Positions 45,443-63,287 of a stretch of 64,000 nt of DNA are shown piece by piece. Within the stretch, counting starts at the first letter, position 1. Every line of letters begins with the position of its first letter. Position numbers and translations under genes: made by a program. Origin of the DNA: Paenibacillus andongensis (GTDB lineage: Bacteria > Bacillota > Bacilli > Paenibacillales > NBRC-103111); the NCBI RefSeq assembly GCF_025369935.1, contig NZ_CP104467.1, positions 124,001-188,000 of the forward strand. The letters run 5' to 3'. Under the pieces are notes generated by a model. That model worked only from the letters and a program-made list of their open reading frames with translations. It was not told the origin of the DNA and made no database searches.

Positions 45443-46411
45443 TTATACCCACCACATTTCACCAAGAGGTTCCTTGATGAGCACTTGTTGGAGATTTTGC
45501 ACGGCTTTGGAGAATCCTTCTTCAACGGACATTAAACCGTCTTCATGCTCGATGCTCACGACATAGTCATAACCAACAAGGCGCAGAGCACTGATGATGT
45601 CAGCCCAAACTTTCATATCGTGACCGTAACCAACGGAACGGAACTGCCAAGCGCGGTCAAGCATGTTGGCATAGGATTGCATATCTGTTACACCATAACG
45701 GTTCACATTGTTCACATCAAGGGATGTATCTTTGGCGTGGAAATGGTGGATCGCGCCGGCACGGCCAAGAATTTGAACCGCTTGAACAGGATCGATACCT
45801 TGCCACCACATGTGACTCGGGTCAAGATTTGCTCCAATTGCTTCACCTGCAGCTTCACGAAGACGAAGGAGGGTTGCTGGCGTATGTACGGAGAAACCAC
45901 CGTGCAGCTCCAGTCCGATTTTAATATTTCGGTCGGAAGCGTACTTGCCTGTTTCTGTCCAGTAAGGAATAACTTTGTTCCCCCACTGCCAGTCCAGAAT
46001 TTCTTGGAAATCGTTCGGCCAAGGCGCTACCGGCCAGTTCGGATACTTCGCATCCTCATGGTCTCCAGGGCAGCCAGAGAATGTGTTAACCACAGGTACC
46101 TCTAAGCGTTCAGCAAGATCAATCGTTTGTATGATAGCATCGTGAAACTCTTTTGCAATGTGTTTTTGCGGGTGCAGCGGGTTACCGTGGGCACTAAGGG
46201 CGCTGATTGTCAAACCGCGGGATTCCACCGCATGTTTAAATGCTTTTAGTTTCCCTGCGTCTGCGAGGAGTTCGCTTGGGTTGCAATGCGCTGTACCGGG
46301 ATAGCCCCCTGTACCAATTTCAACAGCATCTAAGCCTTTTGCAGCAATGTAATCCAACGCTTCCTCGAAAGGTTTTCCACCGAACAGAACCATAAAAACG
46401 CCTAACTTCAT
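45443..46411 (-). CDS. Sugar phosphate isomerase/epimerase family (TIM barrel, AP endonuclease 2 fold)
   Basis: A 322-residue xylose-isomerase-like TIM-barrel protein. Metal-site candidates are visible in IGLELHGGFSVH, GANLDPSHMWWQG, HHFHAKDT and VVSIEHEDGL, the usual Glu/Asp/His/Glu set. Such enzymes isomerise or epimerise sugars or inositol derivatives; the substrate is not readable. ATG 46411 follows GGAGGTG. It is the last gene of the minus-strand unit with the MBOAT, DltX-like and SGNH genes (49 bases after the MBOAT stop), so it may make or modify a sugar of the same polymer, or may be a passenger. Confidence 0.8.
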   Translation of the reverse strand: MKLGVFMVLFGGKPFEEALDYIAAKGLDAVEIGTGGYPGTAHCNPSELLADAGKLKAFKHAVESRGLTISALSAHGNPLHPQKHIAKEFHDAIIQTIDLAERLEVPVVNTFSGCPGDHEDAKYPNWPVAPWPNDFQEILDWQWGNKVIPYWTETGKYASDRNIKIGLELHGGFSVHTPATLLRLREAAGEAIGANLDPSHMWWQGIDPVQAVQILGRAGAIHHFHAKDTSLDVNNVNRYGVTDMQSYANMLDRAWQFRSVGYGHDMKVWADIISALRLVGYDYVVSIEHEDGLMSVEEGFSKAVQNLQQVLIKEPLGEMWWV

Positions 46412-46459
46412 TAGGTACACCTCCATAAATGGTAAACAACCACACAAATTATACCACTA

Positions 46460-47614
46460 TCATCCAGTAAAATGAAGCAAGCCTTTATAGATCCGAAGGA
46501 CCGTCTCATAATTGGAGCTGTAGATAATAACCGAGAACGTAACCAACGCTTGTGTCACGAAACAACGGAAGTAGAAATAGGTTTTGGATACTTTCTTTTT
46601 ATTAACGGTAGTGATTTTAAACATATTTTCGATGGCAAGAATGATCCCATGATAGAGCCCGTAGAAAAAATAAAGCCACGTAAAGCCATGCCACAGACCA
46701 ATCAAGACCATAATCAGAACGGACAAGCTGGAGGCTACCCAGCGGGATGGGGCGGTACGGGAGAAGAACATGAAAATATGATCACGGAAAAAATCACCTA
46801 GCGTCGCATGCCAATTCCGCCAAAACTGCGTCATGGAAGGCGAGAGGAGTGGACGCTTGAAGTTCTCAGGCATCGTGTAACCCATCAATCGTCCAAAGCC
46901 GATCGCCATATCGGAATAACCGGAGAAATCGAAGTAAATGAGTGCATAGAACCAGATCAATAGAAATAACGACTGATGGGTGTGCAGATCCTGCTTTAGC
47001 ACTTGATCGAAAACGCTGGTCATCCAAGTGACCACAACAATTTTCTTAAACAATCCTAAAATGATTCGTTTCACACTGTCTTCGAAGAGCGCTGCATCTA
47101 CGTTGTAAGGCTTTTTGCTATCGGCCATGAAGTCACGGAATTTTAAAATCGGCCCTGATGTAAAAGTTGGAATGAAGAGCAGGTAATTCGCGTAATCAAT
47201 AACTGGAACTTGGCCTTCTTTACCGAAGAAATAAGCAAAATAATAAGCATCGATCACTTTAAGAACGTTATAAATGAGGCCTAAATAGATGATAGCATCG
47301 AACAATGGGTTGTGAAAAATGTCCATGACGAAAAGCCGGACACCGAGAAACACACCGACAACATTAGCAGCAATCGCGAAAATAAAGGTCGCTTTACGCC
47401 ATAACGTCGTTCGACATAGATAAACAAAGCCGGCATAATTAATGACCGTAAAAGCGGCATAGAAAATAAGCAGCTTCTGGCTGAAGAGCAGCAGGAAGCA
47501 TAGGCTGAAAATAATCATCAGAATGCGTTTATTATTAGCCCACTTGCGGGTGAGCATCAGAACAGCAACCATGCCGATCATAGCAATAATTGCGTTCATG
47601 TGCATATAAAACAT
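46460..47614 (-). CDS. MBOAT family membrane O-acyltransferase, DltB-like
   Basis: Polytopic membrane-bound O-acyltransferase (384 aa, about 10 hydrophobic segments) of the DltB/AlgI/PatA group. Both MBOAT histidine motifs are present: WRNWH with H269 and GLWHG with H309, the residue equivalent to the catalytic His of DltB. FDFSGYSDMAIGFGRLMGY is also a DltB/AlgI signature. These proteins move acyl groups across or at the membrane to extracellular polymers. It follows the DltX-like peptide gene by 68 bases, with GAGGAG before the ATG. The context (carrier protein, aaRS-like ligase, SGNH protein) suggests an aminoacyl rather than an acetyl donor. Confidence 0.87.
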   Translation of the reverse strand: MFYMHMNAIIAMIGMVAVLMLTRKWANNKRILMIIFSLCFLLLFSQKLLIFYAAFTVINYAGFVYLCRTTLWRKATFIFAIAANVVGVFLGVRLFVMDIFHNPLFDAIIYLGLIYNVLKVIDAYYFAYFFGKEGQVPVIDYANYLLFIPTFTSGPILKFRDFMADSKKPYNVDAALFEDSVKRIILGLFKKIVVVTWMTSVFDQVLKQDLHTHQSLFLLIWFYALIYFDFSGYSDMAIGFGRLMGYTMPENFKRPLLSPSMTQFWRNWHATLGDFFRDHIFMFFSRTAPSRWVASSLSVLIMVLIGLWHGFTWLYFFYGLYHGIILAIENMFKITTVNKKKVSKTYFYFRCFVTQALVTFSVIIYSSNYETVLRIYKGLLHFTG

Positions 47615-47682
47615 AGCTTAAGAACTCCTCGCTTCGAATGCTTAATCAGTCTCATCTTAGACTTCTAGAAGATTTAGAAATA

Positions 47683-47793
47683 CTAGAATTTCTCGTAGAT
47701 AAACAAGCCTTTGCCAGTAAAATAGATGAAAACCAAATACAGCATTACGAGATAGATCAGGACTTCGATGGTTTTCCTAAGGATTTTAACCAT
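47683..47793 (-). CDS. DltX-like micropeptide (36 aa) ending in FIYEKF
   Basis: A 36-residue peptide with a basic N-terminus (MVKILRKTIE), one transmembrane helix (VLIYLVMLYLVFIYF), the turn TGKGL and the extreme C-terminus FIYEKF. DltX peptides of dlt operons have one helix and a conserved C-terminal FxYxxF motif, whose Tyr is reported to carry the D-alanyl group for transfer; here that is Tyr33. A near-ideal ribosome site, AAGGAGG, lies 7 bases before the ATG, inside the 3' end of the SGNH gene (37-base overlap), and the MBOAT gene follows. Short length makes it easy to overlook. Confidence 0.78.
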   Translation of the reverse strand: MVKILRKTIEVLIYLVMLYLVFIYFTGKGLFIYEKF

Positions 47794-48668
47794 GTGTCTA
47801 CCTCCTTCGTAAATAACGGTGCGCCCTCTTCGCGGTTTAAGTGGACAAGGTCATGGAAATAGCGTGGATCGTATTTGTGCAGCAAATCCAGCGTAGGGAC
47901 ATTCGCTGCTTGCAGCTGGCGGTTTGCCTCTTGCATCAAGGAGGCGACGTAAGGCGGATCCGCATAGCCTTTGTTCCACGGCATCCAGATCACACGCAGA
48001 GGAAGTTGATGCTTATTCGCATACTGGATAACCCACTTCAGAGCATCCAAATTTGCTTGAAAATCTTTTAGTGTCATGGCACCGAAACGCTTGTCGTAAT
48101 CGGTCCATTTCGTCTTTAGGAAAGCATCGTCTTTGCGACCGGGGTACAGTTCTTTATCAATCCAGCGGGGTTCGTAGGCTAGGCTGCCTTTGCGCAAATT
48201 ACGAGCAAACTCTTCACCAGTATCCCGGAAATAGTCGCGGTACGTATAAACATAAGGCTGATACCATGGTTTGAACCATTGGTAGGTTGGATCCGTTTCA
48301 AGTGAATCCAGCATGGTGTGAACATCGATGCCAATCACAAGCTCATCCTTAACTTGGTAAAGGTTATTCGATAGGATGGCTTTCAGGTCGGTTAGCTTTC
48401 CATAAGAAAGTCCCATCTCGACTAAATGTGCTTCAGATTTCTCTTCGATATAGGCACCAGTAACGGACGAATTACCGAAGAAAACCGGACCCGATTGGGA
48501 CCAGCCGTGGTGGTAGAGTGTTTTGGTAAAGTCGTTTTTGTAAAAACGGCGCGAGCTAACCATCGGGTTCCACCAGGAGATGAGCTGGTCGGAGACGACG
48601 ATTGCTAATAGCAGGCCGAGTACGAAGCTATTTTTTTTGAGAAATGCAGCTGCTTTCAACGGTATCAC
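47757..48668 (-). CDS. Membrane-anchored SGNH-type protein, DltD-like
   Basis: A 303-residue protein with one N-terminal anchor (FVLGLLLAIVVSDQLISWW) and an extracytoplasmic SGNH-hydrolase-like domain. The block GNSSVTGAY (Ser67, as in GDSxx of the family) and the C-terminal DLVHLN with Asp273 and His276 would supply the Ser-Asp-His triad. DltD, which completes D-alanyl transfer to teichoic acid, has this topology; overall length is shorter than the roughly 390 aa of DltD. The GTG start has no strong ribosome site, so the exact start is less certain. It is first in the unit SGNH-DltX-MBOAT-isomerase. Confidence 0.75.
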   Translation of the reverse strand: MIPLKAAAFLKKNSFVLGLLLAIVVSDQLISWWNPMVSSRRFYKNDFTKTLYHHGWSQSGPVFFGNSSVTGAYIEEKSEAHLVEMGLSYGKLTDLKAILSNNLYQVKDELVIGIDVHTMLDSLETDPTYQWFKPWYQPYVYTYRDYFRDTGEEFARNLRKGSLAYEPRWIDKELYPGRKDDAFLKTKWTDYDKRFGAMTLKDFQANLDALKWVIQYANKHQLPLRVIWMPWNKGYADPPYVASLMQEANRQLQAANVPTLDLLHKYDPRYFHDLVHLNREEGAPLFTKEVDTWLKSLGKPSKS

Positions 48669-49067
48669 TCATTATCTTTGTATAGGATGGACGCTACATA
48701 ACGTCTGGCTTGCCATAGAGAACGTATGAAGCATTAGGTGGCCCACAGCTGACATGGAACTGTAATCGAACAGCTAATGTCGGCGTGTGGGCTATAGTAA
48801 TGTTACTTGGTTGTAGATAGGTAGGTTGCCTAATGTATCCAGCACCCTCGAGAAATAAACGAACATTATTGGTTTATGCAGCCTAGATCGGTACCAACAA
48901 ACATAGCGCCTAGAAAATACCCGGCGAACCTAACTCATCCAGAACAGCCCAATGTATTGGACGAGTTCGATGAGCATGAGCGCTCCGCACCCAACGAATG
49001 AAGTTGCATTTTGTGCACTGATTAGAAGGCCAAGCAAAAGTAGTTAGGAATAAAACAGAAAAGGCAC
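48669..49067 (-). other. 399-base gap inside the envelope-modification locus
   Basis: No convincing gene is seen on either strand. It holds a large hairpin at 48739-48797 (GCCCACA and TGTGGGC, continuing as GACAT/ATGTC) without a T tract, and the terminator of the upstream ligase gene at its right end. A promoter for the SGNH-MBOAT unit should lie here on the minus strand, but I cannot point to clear -35 and -10 elements. Confidence 0.55.
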
Positions 49068-49079
49068 TTACAGCGCCTT
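49051..49079 (-). terminator. Terminator overlapping the ligase stop codon
   Basis: On the minus strand AAGGCGC..GTGCCTT forms a stem with the TAA stop in its loop, followed by TTCTGTTTTA. It separates the FG-GAP/carrier/ligase unit from the SGNH/MBOAT unit. Confidence 0.6.
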
Positions 49080-50267
49080 CTCCTGCCAAGCATGGTACTG
49101 CTCACGGAATGCAGCAGGCCACTGCTGCTCGTCGAGACCGTACTGCGCCAGGAATGCGAACGCCCAGCGTTCAATTCCGAAGCCTACACAGCCAGTAACG
49201 GCGTTGCGCTTGCCCATTTTAATATTAAAAGCATTCCCAAACGTATTGCTATGAAAATTTACAGAGGAGCACGCGATTGATTTCTTCACATGAGGAATGC
49301 TCAAGCGCAGCTCATATTTCATCTCCTGATTTCGTTGGAAGGACGCTTTCACTTGGAAATCGTTCGTGAAGAACGGGTCGTTGGCGATCTCCATCATGCT
49401 GTCTACGTTCCACTCAACGGCAAGCTCTTTGAGATATTCGATGGATTTTAGGCGATTTTCTTTGACGAAGTCGGGTTTACCGACGAAAATAATTTCACGC
49501 ATCGAGAAGTCGAGCAGACGACCGAAATCGGTGTGGTTTTTGGACTCGAAACGATGACATTTCGCAATGGCTGTCACGACGATGCCGTCACCTTCAAGCG
49601 TTTCATTCTCTAGGCCTTCATAGCAGTGATAACAAGTAGAAGGATTCATCATGAAGTTCGGCTTCACCATGTTGTTATCAAGCGCGAGGGGCTGCTCTTG
49701 GTTCCAACCGCCAGCTTCGCGGATCGATTGGGAGAAGGATTCAATGACATCCAAATCTTCACGCAAATGAGTCACGAAGTGGATATGCTCAGGGAATGAA
49801 GTGAAGTGATTCGTTTTATTCAAAGTGTGGCTATGAATGACAGCTGGATAAGATTCTTCCTGCATGCCTTCGAAACGCTTGGCGATCTTCGTTACGAAAG
49901 AGTAGTCGAAGAAACGCATTAAGCTGGAAAACGGCTCGCGGAAAATAAAAAGGCCGGGCTCCAACACTTTAATGGCTTTACGCTCTACAAGCTCAGCGAT
50001 AATATCGCCTTCGTAGGGAGTGTCGACTTTGTTCTCGAAGAGAATGTTTTCTTTGAAGCCGAAATCACCATGGGAGAAACGTTCAATAAGACGCCCCACC
50101 CGCTCGGTAATACCTTCGTTTCCGCTAGGAGAGTTATGCGTAATGATAATGTGGCCATCTACAAGGGCAATATCCTGAATATGCTCATCGGCAAAGGCAG
50201 ACGCATATTTGACTTGTCCATGCTGACTTTCAGCCAGGCCTTCTAAAGAAACTTTACATGTCAACAT
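49068..50267 (-). CDS. Class II aaRS-like amino acid:[carrier protein] ligase
   Basis: A 399-residue cytoplasmic enzyme resembling the catalytic core of atypical (zinc-type) seryl-tRNA synthetase without a tRNA-binding arm. Class II motif 2 is clear, KCHRFE (236-241) then HTDFGRLLDFSMREIIFVG, as is motif 3, GFGIERWAFAFLAQYGL (362 onward). CYHCYE (212-217) and ACSSVNFHSNTFG (332 onward) carry candidate zinc ligands C212 or C215, E241 and C333. Homologues in Bradyrhizobium and Agrobacterium activate glycine or alanine and load it onto a carrier protein, not tRNA. The carrier gene lies 7 bases upstream. ATG 50267 follows GAGGTAA by 7 bases. The amino acid used here is unknown. Confidence 0.82.
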   Translation of the reverse strand: MLTCKVSLEGLAESQHGQVKYASAFADEHIQDIALVDGHIIITHNSPSGNEGITERVGRLIERFSHGDFGFKENILFENKVDTPYEGDIIAELVERKAIKVLEPGLFIFREPFSSLMRFFDYSFVTKIAKRFEGMQEESYPAVIHSHTLNKTNHFTSFPEHIHFVTHLREDLDVIESFSQSIREAGGWNQEQPLALDNNMVKPNFMMNPSTCYHCYEGLENETLEGDGIVVTAIAKCHRFESKNHTDFGRLLDFSMREIIFVGKPDFVKENRLKSIEYLKELAVEWNVDSMMEIANDPFFTNDFQVKASFQRNQEMKYELRLSIPHVKKSIACSSVNFHSNTFGNAFNIKMGKRNAVTGCVGFGIERWAFAFLAQYGLDEQQWPAAFREQYHAWQEKAL

Positions 50268-50274
50268 GAGTGGG

Positions 50275-50532
50275 TTACCTCGCAGTCTTCTTGGAAATAA
50301 AATCGGCAATTTCGCTTACCGTGTTCATGGAGTACAGCATTAAATCTTGATTCGTCACTTGGATGCTGTACGTTTTCTCAATATGGGCGATGAGCGCTGT
50401 GGCGCCTATGGAGTCGATGAACCCATAATCAAACAGATGAACATCAACGTCAAAATCATCGTCATCCTCAGCAATTTCATAACGCTCGCGAATATGCTGT
50501 TCAAGCTGCGCTACTAATTCTTCATTAGACAT
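50275..50532 (-). CDS. Acyl/peptidyl carrier protein, DltC-like
   Basis: An acidic 85-residue carrier protein. The phosphopantetheine site is Ser41 in FDYGFIDSIGATALI; the surrounding pattern (LFDYGFIDS) resembles DltC and amino-acid carriers more than fatty-acid AcpP. ATG 50532 lies 9 bases after AGGAGG. It is followed almost immediately by the aaRS-like ligase, whose presumed acceptor it is, and preceded by the FG-GAP gene (47-base gap). It would need a phosphopantetheinyl transferase encoded elsewhere. Confidence 0.85.
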   Translation of the reverse strand: MSNEELVAQLEQHIRERYEIAEDDDDFDVDVHLFDYGFIDSIGATALIAHIEKTYSIQVTNQDLMLYSMNTVSEIADFISKKTAR

Positions 50533-50579
50533 GTTGGAAAGCCTCCTGGTTAATTTAAAAGTGGTAAAGGAACGATAGT

Positions 50580-53500
50580 TCATTTTGCGGTAAACGAGAG
50601 TGTCGTCAAATCACCGTAGCGGGTGATGGTGTACATATGGGCTTGGGCGTCATGCTCAATCTTGACCTCGGATGATCCGTTGAAGAGCAGCTCCGTAGGA
50701 CTGAATACTTTCACTTGCTGCAGACCTGCTGATTTCAGGGCTAATTGATGTGTGTTTCTTTGCTGTGTCAGCTCAAAAGGGACATTAGAACGCACAACGT
50801 GGAACTTTTCCTTGTTTGCTCCAATACCGATGGAGGATGGCTTAGCCAAACCTAGGTAGAATCGGTTGTCAATCGTCGTGTAAATATCCGAATCACTTTG
50901 GAGAGAGTATTGGGCTAGCTTATCTCCCTTATCGATGACGACTCCCAGTGTTGAAGAATACTCATCAGCCAAGCTTGGCACCTTGTCGGTATTGGGTGTC
51001 AAAGTGGCATGAAAGTGTGGACTGCCGCCAGATAATCGATCTTTCAGCTTGTCCCATAAATAAGAGGCCCATGACTGACTGATACGAACTTCGCTTTTCA
51101 TAGCGGTTAGGAATGACTTCGCCATCTGTGTTTCGGTCATAAAATTATAATCATGCTTCGTACGAAGCTTATTAAAGTAGTCGGCGAATTCGGTTAAATC
51201 AGCAACTTTAGATGGTACGGGAAAATGGTACTCGATGTGCTCGAAATAATCAATCGGCATGTCCAATTTAACCATTGATTCGAAAACATCCGTTGTCGCG
51301 TAGTCTCCTGTCCGCAGTACCGGCGTCGGTGTATGAATCAGCATCGTATGATCCATACTCCCTTGTTTATCCTGTAATAGAAAGGGAAGCGACCAAATCT
51401 CTTCCGGACGTGGAATGACGGGCGAATCGGGCGCTAAGAATCCGAAATTGTACCATAATCCTTGCTGCTGTTCATTCACCAGTGTTTGCTGGTGGTCAAT
51501 GTTATTGATGCGCCACGTGTGTTGGTTCGTTCCAACATGCAGCCAAGGGATACCAAGCTTATCGAAAGCTTTCTTGTGAAGGGAAAGCTCGGTGCGTTCC
51601 TCTTCAGTACTTTTGAAATTATGCACAAACACGTGCGGATCGATTTGTAAATGATTGTCACGCGCGTATTGGATGAACTCCTGGAGCTCCGCTTGATAAG
51701 GAAACTGCGGGTCGTCAATCGAAATGGGGGACCCGAATTCGATACCGCCAACGACCAAGTCGTCTTTGCCGTCGTGATTAAGATCTATCCAAAGCGGGAC
51801 GGAGTAGTGGCCGGCAACCAAGGCGTGATCGCCGACTTGGTTCAGGGTTGTGCCCTGTAGGGGACCCGCATCCGCCCAAGCGCCATCAGCGCTATGGAGA
51901 TACACCTGTAGGTCCCCATCACTGCTGCCGACCACGATATCGAGTCGGCCGTCGCCATTGATGTCACGCACGGATGGTGCGGCGTGCGTGGCTTTATTAG
52001 GCAGCGTGATGATCACGCTGGCTTGGTCGAGTAGCAGGCCCGCTGCGCTGCGGCCCTTGTAGAGCCGCACTTGTCCATCGGCTCCGCCTAGGACAAGGTC
52101 AAGCTTGCCGTCGCCATCGACGTCGGCGACGAACGGCGCTGCAGGCCCTCCGGGCAGCTGCAGCGCCTTCCCGCCCGCGAGCATCGCCGCGGGCTTCGCG
52201 AACCTGCCGCTAGCAAGCTGCGGCAGAAGCCGTACCGCCCCGGACTCGTCGGACACGACGAGGTCCGTGCGGCCATCCCCGTTCACGTCTGCGGCGTGAA
52301 CGGCACTGTAAGAGCCAAGCTGGAGCGGCTCGCCGGACTCCAGCAGCAGCTTTACCGGCGCGCCGAACGTGTCCGGCAGCGCCAAGCCCTCAGGCGGCGG
52401 CTCACTCGTGTAGGCCGCCGCGTCAACGCCTTGATTCGTGTACACATACACGAATCCGTCCGAGCTGCCGACCACGAGGTCCGTGCGGCCGTCGCCGTTC
52501 ATATCCGCGGCCGTCGGGTACGCGCGGTAAGGCAGCTCAATCGCGCTCGACAGATCGCGATACTGCGGAAACAAAGCCTGCCGCAGGGGCTTGCCGGCAG
52601 CCATCACGTGCAGCCCGCTCGCGTAGCCCGAGCCAGGCAGCTCACCATAGAACGTCGGCTTCGCGTTCGTTCCTGTGTTGAGCTGCACTGTCACGCTCTC
52701 GCGCCATTGCCCCCAGTAAAAGGCGTTCCGCACAAGTGTAAACGAGGGAATCTCGTTATATTCCTTCAGCTTCTCCGCCCAAGCTATGCCGTCCTTTTGA
52801 CCAATGGCCGGCATCGCCTCAAAATGATTCTGAAAAGCCATCGCGGGCCGCCCATAGGGACCGAGGACTTTCCGCACACTGTAACCAAGTGTTTCTTTCG
52901 ATACATAAGCCAGCTGCTCACTGCGGTACTGCATGTTCGCGGCAGCAAAAGCAAAGTTAAAGTAAGGCTCAATCGGCAACGTTTTTCTATTGAAATAAGT
53001 CGTTCCCGGAACTCGTTTCATGTCATCTTGGTACTTGGTGGCCAGTTGGGAGAAGCCTAGCTTCGGATCCATCCCGCTCATCATGTCGTAGCCAGTTTGG
53101 AAGTACCGGTTCGGCAGGAAATTGCTGCTGATCAGCACGGCGCCTTTTCCAACGCGGTTTTGCATAACTAGCGAAACGGGCATTTTCGACTCCACTGGAT
53201 TATTCATGGCCACAATCGTTTGACCTGTGGAGGGATCGAAACCGAATCCGAGGTTAAAGCCAGGTAGATCGTCCATTTTATGATGCTTAAGATAGCTTTG
53301 CGTAAATAATTGAAAGGTTTGTTGAATGCCCTCAAGATTAACTGGCACCTGCGGGTAGCTGAGAGACAGTGAATCCCCAGATAAGAAAGGCGAGCCAAAA
53401 TTGTTCAGTGGTATCTTTTTTAAATCAACAATTCTGGCAGCTCCAAGAAAATCCAGCGGAAATCGGTCAGCAAACTCATTTTCCAACAATAAATGTCCGC

Positions 53501-53825
53501 CCTGCTTCACGAATGTTACGAGTTTCGAAACTTGTTCCGCCCACCCGGCATCTTGCGCAAGGGCAGGATCCAAATAGATTGCATTGTACTTACGAAGCTG
53601 GCTCGTTGATAAGGAAGGCAGGTTTTGTTTGTCAATGTGAAAGCCCGCTTGCAAGGTTTGCTGAAAATTCCCATAGGCTGCCGCATCATAAAGATCCCCG
53701 CTCGTCGCATAGAGGAGCTTGGTTTCATCTACTTTTGGCAAAAATAAAAGTAAGCCTAATACAAATAAGAGACCAAGGCCTAGTCCAATAACGAATTTTA
53801 AAACACGAATTTTCGACAAAACCAA
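50580..53825 (-). CDS. Large exported FG-GAP/VCBS repeat protein
   Basis: A 1081-residue protein with an N-terminal membrane anchor (FVIGLGLGLLFVLGLLLFL). Residues about 35-250 look like a glutamine-amidotransferase-type (ThuA/DUF4350-like) fold (LVTFVKQGGHLLLENEFADR). A mixed region follows, then five FG-GAP/VCBS beta-propeller repeats with calcium-type loops (DMNGDGRTDLVVGS, DVNGDGRTDLVV, DVDGDGKLDLVLGG, DINGDGRLDIVVGS, DLNHDGKDDLVVGG). The C-terminal 350 residues may hold a deacetylase-like barrel (HVGTNQHTWRINNIDH), a weak call. The start is TTG 53825 behind GAGGGA. The repeat region (about 51900-52720) is markedly GC-rich. It heads the unit with the carrier and ligase; polymer binding or processing is inferred from position only. 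Confidence 0.8.
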   Translation of the reverse strand: MVLSKIRVLKFVIGLGLGLLFVLGLLLFLPKVDETKLLYATSGDLYDAAAYGNFQQTLQAGFHIDKQNLPSLSTSQLRKYNAIYLDPALAQDAGWAEQVSKLVTFVKQGGHLLLENEFADRFPLDFLGAARIVDLKKIPLNNFGSPFLSGDSLSLSYPQVPVNLEGIQQTFQLFTQSYLKHHKMDDLPGFNLGFGFDPSTGQTIVAMNNPVESKMPVSLVMQNRVGKGAVLISSNFLPNRYFQTGYDMMSGMDPKLGFSQLATKYQDDMKRVPGTTYFNRKTLPIEPYFNFAFAAANMQYRSEQLAYVSKETLGYSVRKVLGPYGRPAMAFQNHFEAMPAIGQKDGIAWAEKLKEYNEIPSFTLVRNAFYWGQWRESVTVQLNTGTNAKPTFYGELPGSGYASGLHVMAAGKPLRQALFPQYRDLSSAIELPYRAYPTAADMNGDGRTDLVVGSSDGFVYVYTNQGVDAAAYTSEPPPEGLALPDTFGAPVKLLLESGEPLQLGSYSAVHAADVNGDGRTDLVVSDESGAVRLLPQLASGRFAKPAAMLAGGKALQLPGGPAAPFVADVDGDGKLDLVLGGADGQVRLYKGRSAAGLLLDQASVIITLPNKATHAAPSVRDINGDGRLDIVVGSSDGDLQVYLHSADGAWADAGPLQGTTLNQVGDHALVAGHYSVPLWIDLNHDGKDDLVVGGIEFGSPISIDDPQFPYQAELQEFIQYARDNHLQIDPHVFVHNFKSTEEERTELSLHKKAFDKLGIPWLHVGTNQHTWRINNIDHQQTLVNEQQQGLWYNFGFLAPDSPVIPRPEEIWSLPFLLQDKQGSMDHTMLIHTPTPVLRTGDYATTDVFESMVKLDMPIDYFEHIEYHFPVPSKVADLTEFADYFNKLRTKHDYNFMTETQMAKSFLTAMKSEVRISQSWASYLWDKLKDRLSGGSPHFHATLTPNTDKVPSLADEYSSTLGVVIDKGDKLAQYSLQSDSDIYTTIDNRFYLGLAKPSSIGIGANKEKFHVVRSNVPFELTQQRNTHQLALKSAGLQQVKVFSPTELLFNGSSEVKIEHDAQAHMYTITRYGDLTTLSFTAK

Positions 53826-53864: not shown

Positions 53865-53893
53865 ATTATAGCATTCATAGGAAGCTTTGTTAA
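53865..53893 (-). promoter_or_regulatory. Promoter of the FG-GAP/carrier/ligase unit
   Basis: On the minus strand TTAACA (53893-53888), a 17-base spacer and TATAAT (53870-53865), 40 bases before the TTG start. Confidence 0.7.
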
Positions 53894-59181: not shown

Positions 59182-60255
59182 ATGCTTGAGGTCAAACAAG
59201 TCAGCAAGCTGTACGAAAATGATCGCGGCGTACACAACATCGACTTCTCGATGCAGCGCGGCGAAATCGTCGGCTTTTTAGGACCAAACGGTGCCGGCAA
59301 AACAACGACGATGCGCATGATTACGGGTTATTTGAACCCTACGCATGGTCAAATATGGGTGGATGGTCACTCCATGGCGGATAACCCGAAGAAAGCACGC
59401 CGCAAAATCGGCTACTTACCCGAAACGCCGCCTCTCTATCCCGAGATGACAGTGCAAGCTTATTTGCGATTCATCGCAAATCTTCGCGATGTGCCTGCAC
59501 GAGAACAGAAGCTGCGTGTCGGCGAAGCAATCGACAAGCTAGGTCTTCAAGGCCGCGAGAAGCAAATTATTCGCTCCTTGTCTAAGGGCTACAAGCAGCG
59601 CTTGGGCCTCGCGCAAGCGATTCTGCACCAACCGGATCTGCTTATCCTGGACGAGCCTACGTCCGGCCTTGATCCGAAGCAGATCATCGAGATTCGCCAG
59701 CTGATTCATGAGCTGGGGGAGAACCATACAGTGCTGCTGAGCACGCACATTCTCCCGGAAATTAACGCGATTTGCAACCGCGTTCTCATTATTAACCAAG
59801 GCCGCGTCGTTCTCGACGAGCGCCCTGAGCATCTCGGCCGCACGATGGGCGAGACGTTCGAGGTGTCGCTCGAGGTCAAGGGACCTCGCGAGCGGATCTT
59901 GACCGAGCTGCGCAGCCTAGAGGCGGTCGCAGCGGTGAAAGAAGTCGACGCGCCAAGCGACGCTGCAGCTATCGCTGCGCCTGCTGCGCAGGATGTGTTC
60001 AACAGTGACAATGCAGTTGTGGAAGCGGCGATCTCTGAGCCAGTATCAGCCGAAACCGTGAAGCTGCTCGTAACCTCGGCGGATCGCTCCGATATCCGCG
60101 AAGCGCTGTTTTTCCGCTTAGCCGGTGCCGGCTACCCGATCCTTGAGATGAAGCGGGAAAGCCTCAGCCTAGAGGATATCTTCCTCAAGCTGACGACGGA
60201 TGAACCTGTTGAAGCCGACAGCACTCCGAAGGAGGAGGTAGATGCCGATGCGTAG
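59182..60255 (+). CDS. ABC transporter ATP-binding protein, GldA-type
   Basis: ABC ATPase (357 aa). Walker A GPNGAGKTTTMRMI, signature LSKGYKQRLGLAQA, Walker B LLILDEPTSGLD and the His-switch LLSTHILPE are intact. The C-terminal about 130 residues carry an Ala-rich insertion (roughly 245-275) before the final DUF4162-like part. The group resembles GldA of Bacteroidetes gliding and many uncharacterised Firmicute exporters. It is first of four overlapping genes (permease, GldG-like, DUF4340). Confidence 0.92.
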   Translation: MLEVKQVSKLYENDRGVHNIDFSMQRGEIVGFLGPNGAGKTTTMRMITGYLNPTHGQIWVDGHSMADNPKKARRKIGYLPETPPLYPEMTVQAYLRFIANLRDVPAREQKLRVGEAIDKLGLQGREKQIIRSLSKGYKQRLGLAQAILHQPDLLILDEPTSGLDPKQIIEIRQLIHELGENHTVLLSTHILPEINAICNRVLIINQGRVVLDERPEHLGRTMGETFEVSLEVKGPRERILTELRSLEAVAAVKEVDAPSDAAAIAAPAAQDVFNSDNAVVEAAISEPVSAETVKLLVTSADRSDIREALFFRLAGAGYPILEMKRESLSLEDIFLKLTTDEPVEADSTPKEEVDADA

Positions 60256-60964
60256 AATCTGGGCCATTTGCTCGAAAGAGCTGCAAATGTATTTCTTTTC
60301 GCCGGTTGCTTACGTGGCATTCGCTTTCTATGTGCTGCTATCGAGCTTCTTCTTCTACATCAACTTCGTTAACGGCCAGCCGCCGATTGTGGATGCGCGT
60401 TCCGTTGTTGGTAACACCACATTCGTGTATCTCTTTATCATCCCGCTATTGACGATGCGTCTCATCGCAGATGAGTTCCGTCAAGGGACAGATGAGCTGT
60501 TGCTGACTTCACCTGCAGGCATTGGTGAAATCGTGCTGGGTAAATATTTGTCTGCTTTTATTGTACAAGTGGGACTAGTGGGGATCAGCTTAATTTACCC
60601 GCTCATCATGTCTGCCTTCGGAACGCTGGATAAGCCTGTTATGTGGCTGTCCTATCTAAGCATGTTCCTATTAGGCTGCGCGATGATGGCCATTGGCTTG
60701 TTCGCTTCCAGCTTGTCCAACAATCAGATGGTTGCCGGTATATCAGGCTTTGTTATCTTGCTTTTGCTGTGGCTGCTTGATTGGGTAAGCGGCAGCATGA
60801 CAGGCAAGCTGAAGGATTACGTCGCTCAATTCTCATTGACGAGCCATCTGACGAACTTGCAAAAGGGCGTCCTGCACGGCGGAGACATCCTCTTTTATAT
60901 CACATTAACAGCTGTGTTCCTGGTTCTTTGCATACAAGTCCTTGAAAGAAAGCGTTGGAGGTGA
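60248..60964 (+). CDS. ABC-2 type permease, GldF-like
   Basis: A 238-residue permease with six hydrophobic segments. RLIADEFRQGTDELLLTSP between spans 2 and 3 is the coupling-helix signature of the GldF/NosY group. ATG 60248, 9 bases after GAGGAGG, is favoured over ATG 60242; either way it overlaps the ATPase gene. With the neighbours it forms a complete exporter-like module. Confidence 0.9.
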   Translation: MRRIWAICSKELQMYFFSPVAYVAFAFYVLLSSFFFYINFVNGQPPIVDARSVVGNTTFVYLFIIPLLTMRLIADEFRQGTDELLLTSPAGIGEIVLGKYLSAFIVQVGLVGISLIYPLIMSAFGTLDKPVMWLSYLSMFLLGCAMMAIGLFASSLSNNQMVAGISGFVILLLLWLLDWVSGSMTGKLKDYVAQFSLTSHLTNLQKGVLHGGDILFYITLTAVFLVLCIQVLERKRWR

Positions 60965-60969
60965 GCGGG

Positions 60970-62358
60970 ATGAATAAGTGGATACGGGGAACTAATGCGA
61001 CTGTTTTATCGATCGCCGTTATCGGCATTTTCATTATACTGACGATCTTCCTTCATTCGCTGAAAGGCTTTCAGGTCGATTTGACGAAAAATAAGAGCTT
61101 TACGCTCTCCGAGCAAACAGTTGCCACACTCAAAAACTTAAATCAAGATATTCACATCGTTGCCTTTACGAATAGTGGGGACAACAACGGTTTTGTGACC
61201 CGTCAAGTCACTGATATGGTGACCGAATATAAGAAGCAAAGCGGTAAGATTACGTATGATGAGTACGATATGCTGAAACAGCCTTCGATGGCCAAGCAGT
61301 ATGGTGTCGATCAAGGCGGAACCATTATTTTTGAAATGGGTTCTAAAAAGCAGAATATCAATTTCTATGAATTGTTTGCCGGTCAACAAGATGGTTCTTA
61401 CACGTTCTCAGGGGAAGAAAAGTTTACCCAAGCCATTAAGAGCCTCACGTCTACAGAGAAGCACACGGTTTATCTGCTTTCCGGTCATCAGGAATATCCT
61501 CAGAATGCCATGACCATTTTGAAAAGCAGTTTGGAAGCCGCTAATTATGTCGTGAAGGACCTTAATCTGTTCGTTGAGGGTAAAATACCGGACGATGCGC
61601 AGATGCTTATGCTGCTTGGTCCGCAAAATGACCTCAATGATAAAGAAGCAGCGCTAATTGAAGCTTATTTGAAGGATAAAGGCAAGATTTATATGGCATT
61701 AGGCTTCAATAAAGATATGGCGACTAAGTGGAAAAACATCGATGCGATCATGAAAACGTACGGCATTCAGGATCAACATGCGATTGCGATTGAACCGAAA
61801 CAAACGTCGCTCTATGATCCGCTGACGATTATTCCGGAGTATGGTCCCCATGACATTACCAACAAGCTGTCCAGCAATAATTTGGTTACGATGTTGTCGC
61901 TGGCTGTAAGTTTGAATACGGATGGCAGTGCACCAGACTATACCCAGTCTCTGCTATTGAAAACAACAGATAAAGCTTACGGGGAAACAGATATCAACCT
62001 TCTAGCACAATCCAAAACCAAGCAGGATGCGACAGATGTCAAAGGACCGCTCAACCTTGGCTACGCGATTTCGAATAAGGATAACAAGCCTAAAGCTGTC
62101 ATTCTTGGGGGATCTACGTTTGTACTAGATGAAGATATTCAGAATCAAGGCAACAAGGATTTTGCTTTGAACAGTATTGGCTGGCTGCAGGAACAGAAGG
62201 ATCAGATCACGATCCGTCCGCGTCAAGGGGATGCGTTCCAGCAAGCGATGATTACGCCTAGCCAAGCGAATACGATTTTCCTCGTAACGATCGTGTTCTT
62301 ACCGCTCTTGTTCCTAGTGATTGGCGGCTTGATTTGGTGGAGGAGGAGACGAGGATGA
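60970..62358 (+). CDS. GldG-like ABC-associated extracytoplasmic protein
   Basis: A 462-residue protein with an N-terminal anchor (TVLSIAVIGIFIILTIFLHS), a large outside domain of the ABC_transp_aux (GldG) family starting at LTKNKSFTLSEQTVATLKNL, and a C-terminal span (TIVFLPLLFLVIGGLIWW) ending in a basic tail. Residues YLLSGHQEYP belong to the family core. ATG 60970 follows GGAGGTGA. It overlaps the next gene by 4 bases (ATGA), so translation is coupled. Its transport substrate is unknown. Confidence 0.88.
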   Translation: MNKWIRGTNATVLSIAVIGIFIILTIFLHSLKGFQVDLTKNKSFTLSEQTVATLKNLNQDIHIVAFTNSGDNNGFVTRQVTDMVTEYKKQSGKITYDEYDMLKQPSMAKQYGVDQGGTIIFEMGSKKQNINFYELFAGQQDGSYTFSGEEKFTQAIKSLTSTEKHTVYLLSGHQEYPQNAMTILKSSLEAANYVVKDLNLFVEGKIPDDAQMLMLLGPQNDLNDKEAALIEAYLKDKGKIYMALGFNKDMATKWKNIDAIMKTYGIQDQHAIAIEPKQTSLYDPLTIIPEYGPHDITNKLSSNNLVTMLSLAVSLNTDGSAPDYTQSLLLKTTDKAYGETDINLLAQSKTKQDATDVKGPLNLGYAISNKDNKPKAVILGGSTFVLDEDIQNQGNKDFALNSIGWLQEQKDQITIRPRQGDAFQQAMITPSQANTIFLVTIVFLPLLFLVIGGLIWWRRRRG

Positions 62359-63287
62359 AACGGTTTATTCCTACGATTCTGTTAGTCGTTATTTGCATCG
62401 GCGGTTTTTGGTACGCATCGAGCAAAGACTTCTTTCAAGAGAAAAAAGATGAACCGAAATCGCTCATCACACTCAAGCAAGAAGACGTACAGTCCATTCA
62501 TGTGAAAAAAGAGGAAGAGCAGATCGAGCTAGCTCGAAATGGTAGCGGTTGGGAGATGAAAACCCCGGCACCAGCGCCGATCAATACGAGTCAAGTGGGT
62601 TCGTGGTTGGACGCCCTAGGTTTGGTGACATCAACGAAAGTAGTTGAAGATCAGGCAAGTAATTTATCCACCTATGGACTAGATAAGCCTGTAGGAACTT
62701 ACGAAGTTACGTTAAAAGACGGCTCGAAGAAAGGGCTGCTGGTCGGTACAGCTCTTCCCATCGAAGGCTTCTCCTATGTTCAGGTGGAAGGATCTCCTGC
62801 CGTGTATCAGGTGAGCGATCAGTCGCTCTCTGCCATCAGCAAAGAACCGGTAGACTTCGCTGATGCTAGCCCAGTCCAATTCGAAAGCGACAAGGTGCAA
62901 AGCGTAAAACTGACATGGAAAGGCCAGACTTTTACGCTTGCCAAAACGGATAAAGACAAGGTAGCTGCTGAGGCAAACTGGAAGCTTGGTGATAAAGAGC
63001 TAAAAGGCGCGGAGGCCACTCCGCTGCTGAATGAGCTGAACTTCCTGCATAGCGTTGATCTTCCACAGCCAGCGGCTCAGAAGCCAACTGCGGGCGGTGA
63101 GCTCAAAATAGAGCTTGGGTTGTCTGTTGATGGCAAAGAGGTCACCGAGATCTATGAAGGCAAGCTAAGCCAAGATCAGGTCTGGCTCTCGAAGCAAGGC
63201 GGACAGTGGGCGTACCCGCTTACAGCCGCGGACATACAGAAATTGACGGATGCCTATGCCGGTAAGCCGGCTCAGCCCGCCTCTTAA
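62355..63287 (+). CDS. DUF4340 domain protein
   Basis: A 310-residue protein with an N-terminal membrane anchor (FIPTILLVVICIGGFWYA) and a DUF4340 domain built of two similar beta-rich halves (YGLDKPVGTYEVTLKDGSKK in the first). DUF4340 proteins regularly follow GldG-like genes in Firmicutes and are thought to be extracytoplasmic parts of the same ABC system. The start overlaps the GldG-like stop by 4 bases, and a terminator closes the unit. Confidence 0.85.
   Translation: MKRFIPTILLVVICIGGFWYASSKDFFQEKKDEPKSLITLKQEDVQSIHVKKEEEQIELARNGSGWEMKTPAPAPINTSQVGSWLDALGLVTSTKVVEDQASNLSTYGLDKPVGTYEVTLKDGSKKGLLVGTALPIEGFSYVQVEGSPAVYQVSDQSLSAISKEPVDFADASPVQFESDKVQSVKLTWKGQTFTLAKTDKDKVAAEANWKLGDKELKGAEATPLLNELNFLHSVDLPQPAAQKPTAGGELKIELGLSVDGKEVTEIYEGKLSQDQVWLSKQGGQWAYPLTAADIQKLTDAYAGKPAQPAS

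Follow-up and report, generated by a model that had tools for sequence, protein, structure and literature searches.

We report six genes of Paenibacillus andongensis that are likely to form an aminoacyl relay of the Dlt type, in which a relative of the aminoacyl-tRNA synthetases (aaRSs) does the charging instead of the ligase DltA. The genes lie on the minus strand of a stretch of 64,000 nucleotides, called the window below, from a genome of 7.64 Mb in a single contig (NZ_CP104467.1, positions 124,001 to 188,000; G000:C1:124001-188000). In order of transcription they encode an exported, membrane-anchored protein with FG-GAP repeats, a carrier protein, an aaRS-like amino acid:[carrier protein] ligase, an SGNH acyltransferase-like protein, a membrane peptide of 36 residues and a DltB-like acyltransferase of the membrane-bound O-acyltransferase (MBOAT) family. 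All these parts had been listed by an initial annotation of the sequence, together with Ser41 of the carrier, the His motifs of the MBOAT protein and the FIYEKF end of the peptide, and all of them were found in place and on that strand.

Results

Carrier protein and aaRS-like ligase

The carrier gene (50275..50532, minus strand like all the genes described here) encodes 85 residues from an internal ATG at 50532, which is preceded by AGGAGG, within an open reading frame (ORF) that is open to 50583. The protein matches the PP-binding family PF00550 with 45.6 bits, and its phosphopantetheine serine, Ser41 (Ser58 of the long ORF), is invariant in 70 rows. In this and the other conservation counts the window protein is itself a row, and proteins shorter than 85% of its length are left out, namely 1 of 70 carriers, 4 of 71 ligases, 1 of 70 SGNH proteins and 2 of 69 MBOAT proteins. 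The DltC models are matched weakly, at 29 and 22 bits and below their cut-offs, alongside other carrier models.

The ligase gene (49068..50267, 399 residues, ORF open to 50309) has its ATG 7 bp past the stop of the carrier gene, and its product is 99% identical to that of named Paenibacillus loci, e.g. P. alginolyticus. The protein matches the PRK07080 model (156 bits, E 9e-46). Its closest solved relative is the Bradyrhizobium amino acid:[carrier protein] ligase 3mey (E 9.5e-28), to which the chain 4h2w is near-identical, and the next is the type-2 seryl-tRNA synthetase (SerRS) 3w3s (E 4.9e-23). Cys226, Glu272 and Cys374 have identical counterparts both in 3mey and in type-2 SerRS, at positions which we take to be the Zn site; Arg253, Glu255 and Arg381, presumably the ATP residues of motifs 2 and 3, are common to the same proteins. 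In a ligase tree the module ligases fall into one group of 13 rows with 100/100 support; both solved chains have long branches in this tree, two rows were left out and the deeper order was not used. Prediction of the substrate from the ligase sequence, by comparing residues with the SerRS chain, gave no result, because most of the compared residues are common to both.

MBOAT protein, peptide and SGNH protein

The MBOAT protein (46460..47614, 384 residues) is the only member of its family matched in the window genome. It scores 70.4 bits with PF03062 and 179 bits with the DltB model TIGR04091, whose cut-off is 375, and its His269 and His309 are invariant in 68 rows. A profile of the module MBOAT proteins, searched against the sequences of the Protein Data Bank (PDB), finds at E<=0.01 solely the DltB chains 6bug and 8jem. 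The same profile scores the canonical DltB of two relatives (L153 and L154) at 142 and 120 bits, and in the alignment with the former the two histidines land on W-H-M-S-L and G-V-W-H-G. The C terminus of the window protein reads IYKGLLHFTG and has no F-x-Y-x-x-F motif of its own.

Such a motif is found at the end of the small peptide encoded at 47683-47793 (MVKILRKTIEVLIYLVMLYLVFIYFTGKGLFIYEKF), the ORF of which overlaps the 3' end of the SGNH gene by 37 bp. All of the 70 loci keep the tail F-I-Y-E-[GKD]-F. Over codons 14-36, comparison of these loci with the window gives 251, 137 and 677 differences at codon positions 1, 2 and 3, a bias from which we conclude that the frame is translated and constrained. 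The peptide is DltX-like in its size and in its C-terminal motif, the DltX tails in the canonical dlt operons of L153 and L154 being FVYNEF and FIYTEF.

The SGNH protein (47757..48668) has an N-terminal transmembrane helix and holds a DltD-like position among the genes. Ser67, Asp273 and His276 do not vary in any of 70 rows. No Pfam family matches the protein, and a search of its profile against the PDB sequences has a best E of 0.08; its predicted fold is that of SGNH proteins, with DltD and PatB among the structural matches.

The exported protein

The first gene of the block (50580..53825, 1081 residues) had been noted as encoding a large exported FG-GAP protein. The repeats are there (118 bits with Pfam), but from its predicted fold the protein is mainly a PelA/Agd3-like carbohydrate-esterase protein. 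A transmembrane helix (residues 2-28) and an alpha/beta domain (~30-310) are predicted at the N terminus, then a carbohydrate-esterase-like barrel interrupted by a beta-propeller (~405-701), and a beta-sandwich at the C terminus; in its overall fold the prediction agrees with families CE18, CE21 and CE26. The pair H731 and H735, in the place of motif 2 (H-x-x-x-H) as set by eye, is invariant in 28 of 28 rows. A phmmer search with the C-terminal part gave no match at E<=5. A fold of the PelA/Agd3 type would point to an amino-sugar polymer.

Second copies of this gene occur outside the module in four genomes (L161, L162, L163 and L164). Those of L163 and L164 have ORFs nearby which by eye resemble FtsW/RodA-type proteins, and no polymer synthase could be recognised by eye in the surroundings of the second copies.

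DltA and DltB

The proposal that the aaRS relative stands in DltA's place agrees well with the distribution of DltA. Among the 104 genomes of the family, the DltA model is passed at its cut-off of 560 in three (G083, G002 and G066), while G068 is just below at 545; altogether 93 of the 96 genomes bearing the ligase have no DltA over the cut-off. The window genome has none either, its best match (325 bits) lying in an ORF of 4233 residues, and no DltA adenylation-domain ligase is among the six proteins scanned. Matches to the model at E<=1e-30 exist in 89 of the 104 genomes, but counting these genomes as DltA-bearing was rejected, since three pass the cut-off; among the matches listed, most of the others are in ORFs of more than 1000 residues, as nonribosomal peptide synthetases have. 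DltB is over its cut-off in four genomes, the three above and G068, and in each it adjoins the DltA gene. All four also carry the ligase and the MBOAT protein of the module, and we therefore reject the possibility, raised in the initial annotation, that a full dlt operon makes use of this same MBOAT partner.

Conservation of the module

In a scan with the window proteins, the six genes and a neighbouring AP_endonuc_2 (sugar isomerase-type) gene (45443..46447) share one arrangement, in order as well as strand, in 67 of 71 named loci, and the remaining four (L093, L097, L098 and L100) are truncated by contig ends. The carrier gene precedes the ligase gene in 70 of the 71 loci, and the last one ends inside the ligase. 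Two broken copies, L095 and L096, are counted as present; in these (genomes G078 and G023) both the ligase gene and the MBOAT gene are divided over separate frames, by decay or assembly error. Insertions of ~5 kb and 1.4 kb are seen between the peptide and MBOAT genes at L094:12214-17582 and L102:12214-13640.

A check of co-occurrence over genomes, which the initial annotation had proposed, tells the same. Orthologues of the ligase, of the MBOAT protein (E<=1e-60) and of the FG-GAP protein (E<=1e-30) are present in 96, 94 and 95 of the 104 related genomes of the family, and all three are missing from the same eight. The extra absences, of the MBOAT protein in G007 and G026 and of the FG-GAP protein in G005, fall in assemblies that are 68%, 78% and 70% complete, respectively. 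What is more, in four of the module-less genomes the two genes flanking the block, AP_endonuc_2 and U32 peptidase, still lie close to each other with the six genes absent between them. The two flanks are spaced by 44 bp in G014; G013, G003 and G087 have 1.2, 2.1 and 2.5 kb there, with 2, 3 and 2 unrelated ORFs. At none of these four sites did a remnant of the six genes turn up, the sole trace being one of AP_endonuc_2 with 3.5 bits. The conserved order, the joint absence and the empty sites with their flanks kept lead us to reject chance adjacency and support the view that the six genes are one inherited module.

The AP_endonuc_2 gene was considered as a further member and rejected. It is kept in seven of the eight module-less genomes, including G020 and G021 (L174 and L177), where the U32 gene is not in the stretch examined, and G001, where it stands at a contig end; only G080 has no match. 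Its distance from the MBOAT gene is 0.6-1 kb in several clades, with ORFs of the opposite strand in the space. Since it persists without the module, we place the module's end at the MBOAT gene, and the 8.4-kb range first assigned to the locus, which does hold all six parts, also spans this unnamed outside gene. In a tree of the AP_endonuc_2 proteins the module-less rows are scattered, G020 standing with two module-bearing rows (100/97) and G001 in a 98/93 group; the tree is otherwise unresolved and its bootstrap had not settled. The space between the MBOAT and AP_endonuc_2 genes holds, in L057, L066, L070, L078 and L101, two small opposite-strand ORFs (~116-131 and 86-133 residues) that look alike by eye.

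Occurrence outside the family

Sampling 392 genomes of the order gives strong ligase orthologues beyond the family in two, both from a single other family; they score 680 and 593 bits, and the next best match has 219. Both of these genomes hold the whole set, and their peptide tails are FIYEGF and FLYEGF. In a sample of the phylum (398 genomes), one of the 397 genomes other than that of the window has a ligase match at E<=1e-20, and this match is divergent. Divergent aaRS-like ligases of the same order that stand in other contexts, such as L137, L139, L143, L145 and L146, have neighbours that by eye resemble dehydrogenases and other metabolic enzymes.

Genomic context

Upstream of the block there is a promoter-like site, TTAACA-17-TATAAT with TG before the -10 element (53865..53893, minus strand). 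It agrees with the consensus at 11 of 12 positions and is the best among the 23 such sites of the region, against a chance expectation of 14.1 (sd 4.2); as a real promoter it is only suggestive. The space between the ligase and SGNH genes (48669-49067) starts with a 12-pair terminator-like hairpin; it varies in length and is only partly common to close relatives. The locus is flanked by UvrB and UvrA genes at one end and by the U32 peptidase gene at the other. Past the latter, at 59182-63287, ABC transporter genes are found together with genes of an ABC_transp_aux protein and a DUF4340 protein, presumably a gliding-type arrangement. Of the four module-less sites viewed, three likewise have at least part of the ABC transporter set adjoining U32.

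Discussion

We infer the reaction steps, the amino acid and the acceptor as follows. The aaRS-like ligase would activate an amino acid with ATP and attach it to the carrier's phosphopantetheine through a thioester bond. The DltB-like MBOAT protein, acting on the inner side of the membrane, may then pass the amino acid from the carrier to the tyrosine in the F-x-Y-x-x-F tail of the peptide, and outside the cell the tail would hand it over to Ser67 of the SGNH protein, which in turn would esterify an extracellular polymer. The anchored PelA/Agd3-like protein may bind or trim this polymer, which would probably contain N-acetyl amino sugars. As substrates of class II aaRS relatives one expects L-amino acids or glycine. 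Because the ligase is such a relative, D-alanine is a less likely residue than glycine or an L-amino acid, for instance alanine. In its most specific form, the proposal is that the aaRS core charges glycine or an L-amino acid and that the DltB-DltX-DltD-like relay esterifies an amino-sugar polymer bound or remodelled by the PelA/Agd3-like partner; this form we put forward tentatively, as something short of probable.

Several observations weigh against a Dlt-type relay fed by the ligase. The window peptide has no match to the Pfam family DltX (PF12459), which the canonical DltX of two relatives do match, and the profile of the module SGNH proteins reaches two canonical DltD only at E 0.3 and 0.036. 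The score of the ligase with PRK07080 is far below the cut-off of that model (357), and type-2 SerRS scores nearly as much, 147 bits, also far below its own cut-off. In the window the ligase gene is parted from the SGNH gene by ~400 bp with a terminator-like hairpin, hairpins of this kind being found at 11 sites against 11.0 expected by chance. The exported protein does not have the Asp-Asp of motif 1 of Agd3 and PelADA. At this place, set by eye on the predicted strands, it has Q332-N333-H334, invariant in 28 of 28 rows and kept in four paralogues as well; because of this replacement deacetylation is doubtful. The co-occurrence counts come from related genomes and are not independent. In addition, none of 18 loci with divergent ligases, picked by hand from the order-sample list, has an SGNH, peptide, MBOAT or FG-GAP gene within 12-18 kb, and carriers adjoin the ligase in two of them (L143 and L146); the coupling is therefore special to one ligase clade.

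Among other explanations, the one that survives best, although unlikely, is ordinary teichoic-acid D-alanylation with the charging enzyme alone swapped, so that D-alanine is loaded and lipoteichoic acid accepts it. The MBOAT protein, the peptide, the carrier and the SGNH protein would all fit Dlt roles in that case, and the genome has three ORFs with an LtaS-like sulfatase domain. These ORFs, however, reach 70, 32 and 37 bits with a model whose cut-off is 970, and no TagB/TagF-family (PF04464) match is found in the window genome by a search that is positive in Bacillus subtilis, so that a canonical teichoic acid is unlikely as the acceptor. Moreover, D-alanine is not what a class II aaRS relative would be expected to use, the carbohydrate-esterase-like partner has no place in Dlt, and canonical dltA-dltB coexists with the module in four genomes.

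Still less probable is that two pathways share one operon, the ligase and carrier making a metabolite or modifying something else while the MBOAT protein, the peptide and the SGNH protein acetylate a polymer from acyl-CoA as PatA/PatB do. The contexts of the divergent ligases without an MBOAT gene would suit such a division, and so would acetyl-CoA, which is given as the acyl source of PatA in PMC12148441. In the same paper, the acyl-Tyr shuttle is described as running through F-x-Y-x-x-F, the motif of PatA-type MBOATs as fused to their own C terminus, and other MBOAT-SGNH pathways as having neither a carrier protein nor a DltX-like microprotein; here, in contrast, a separate peptide supplies the motif. 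The MBOAT protein is nearest to DltB, a type that uses a carrier, and the ligase, the MBOAT protein and the FG-GAP protein are present and absent together. That the aaRS-like protein is a duplicate SerRS or a tRNA-dependent enzyme, here by chance, is very improbable in spite of the nearly equal score and the shared Cys/Glu/Cys and motif residues, since the match begins at residue 191 of 3w3s and leaves the N-terminal part of the synthetase and the first ~97 ligase residues unmatched, and since a carrier gene comes before the ligase gene across the loci, in the window by 7 bp.

If a relay charged by the aaRS relative does operate, MBOAT-SGNH acylation would have a third feed beside DltA with D-alanine and acyl-CoA, and the MBOAT-microprotein-SGNH relay would be an outlet for carrier-bound amino acids beyond the D-alanine charged by DltA. 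It would also mean that an unrelated enzyme can take over the charging step, and that an enzyme derived from the translation machinery powers the aminoacylation of a wall polymer. According to PMC9437257, carrier-charging aaRS relatives attach amino acids to carriers, no longer possess the tRNA-binding domain and lack a known biological role; structures of such enzymes are solved. For this orphan family the module would be a first physiological role, offering a full candidate route from the ligase to a surface polymer by which that role becomes testable. A literature search, short of most subscription journals and of all preprints, found among the matches listed no paper linking an aaRS-like ligase to an MBOAT relay.

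Compared with known systems, the module shares with Dlt (DltX-A-B-C-D) a carrier, a DltB-like MBOAT protein, a small membrane peptide with F-x-Y-x-x-F and an SGNH protein, all in a single cluster. It differs in the aaRS-like ligase in place of DltA, in the gene order, in the extra PelA/Agd3-like protein, in the peptide outside the Pfam DltX family and in the MBOAT score below the DltB cut-off; having neither DltA nor a Pfam DltX, it is Dlt-like in its proposed working but not classed as Dlt. With PatA/PatB peptidoglycan O-acetylation and similar pairs it has in common the MBOAT and SGNH proteins and the acyl-Tyr shuttle motif, whereas here the motif is on a separate peptide and, compared with those pairs as described in PMC12148441, a carrier and ligase would take the place of acyl-CoA. 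Its exported protein resembles the deacetylases PelA, Agd3 and Bacillus cereus PelADA (CE21, CE18 and CE26) in the predicted overall fold and the invariant H-x-x-x-H pair, and departs from them in the predicted beta-propeller insert, in the Gln-Asn-His of motif 1 and in being set beside an acylation relay. Finally, the nearest solved relatives of the ligase, the Bll0957-type amino acid:[carrier protein] ligases of Bradyrhizobium, keep the same Cys/Glu/Cys and motif residues, and in the module a carrier gene adjoins that of the ligase. The window ligase differs in having ~140 residues ahead of the matched part, and the module ligases are a clade of their own, tied to a candidate membrane relay.

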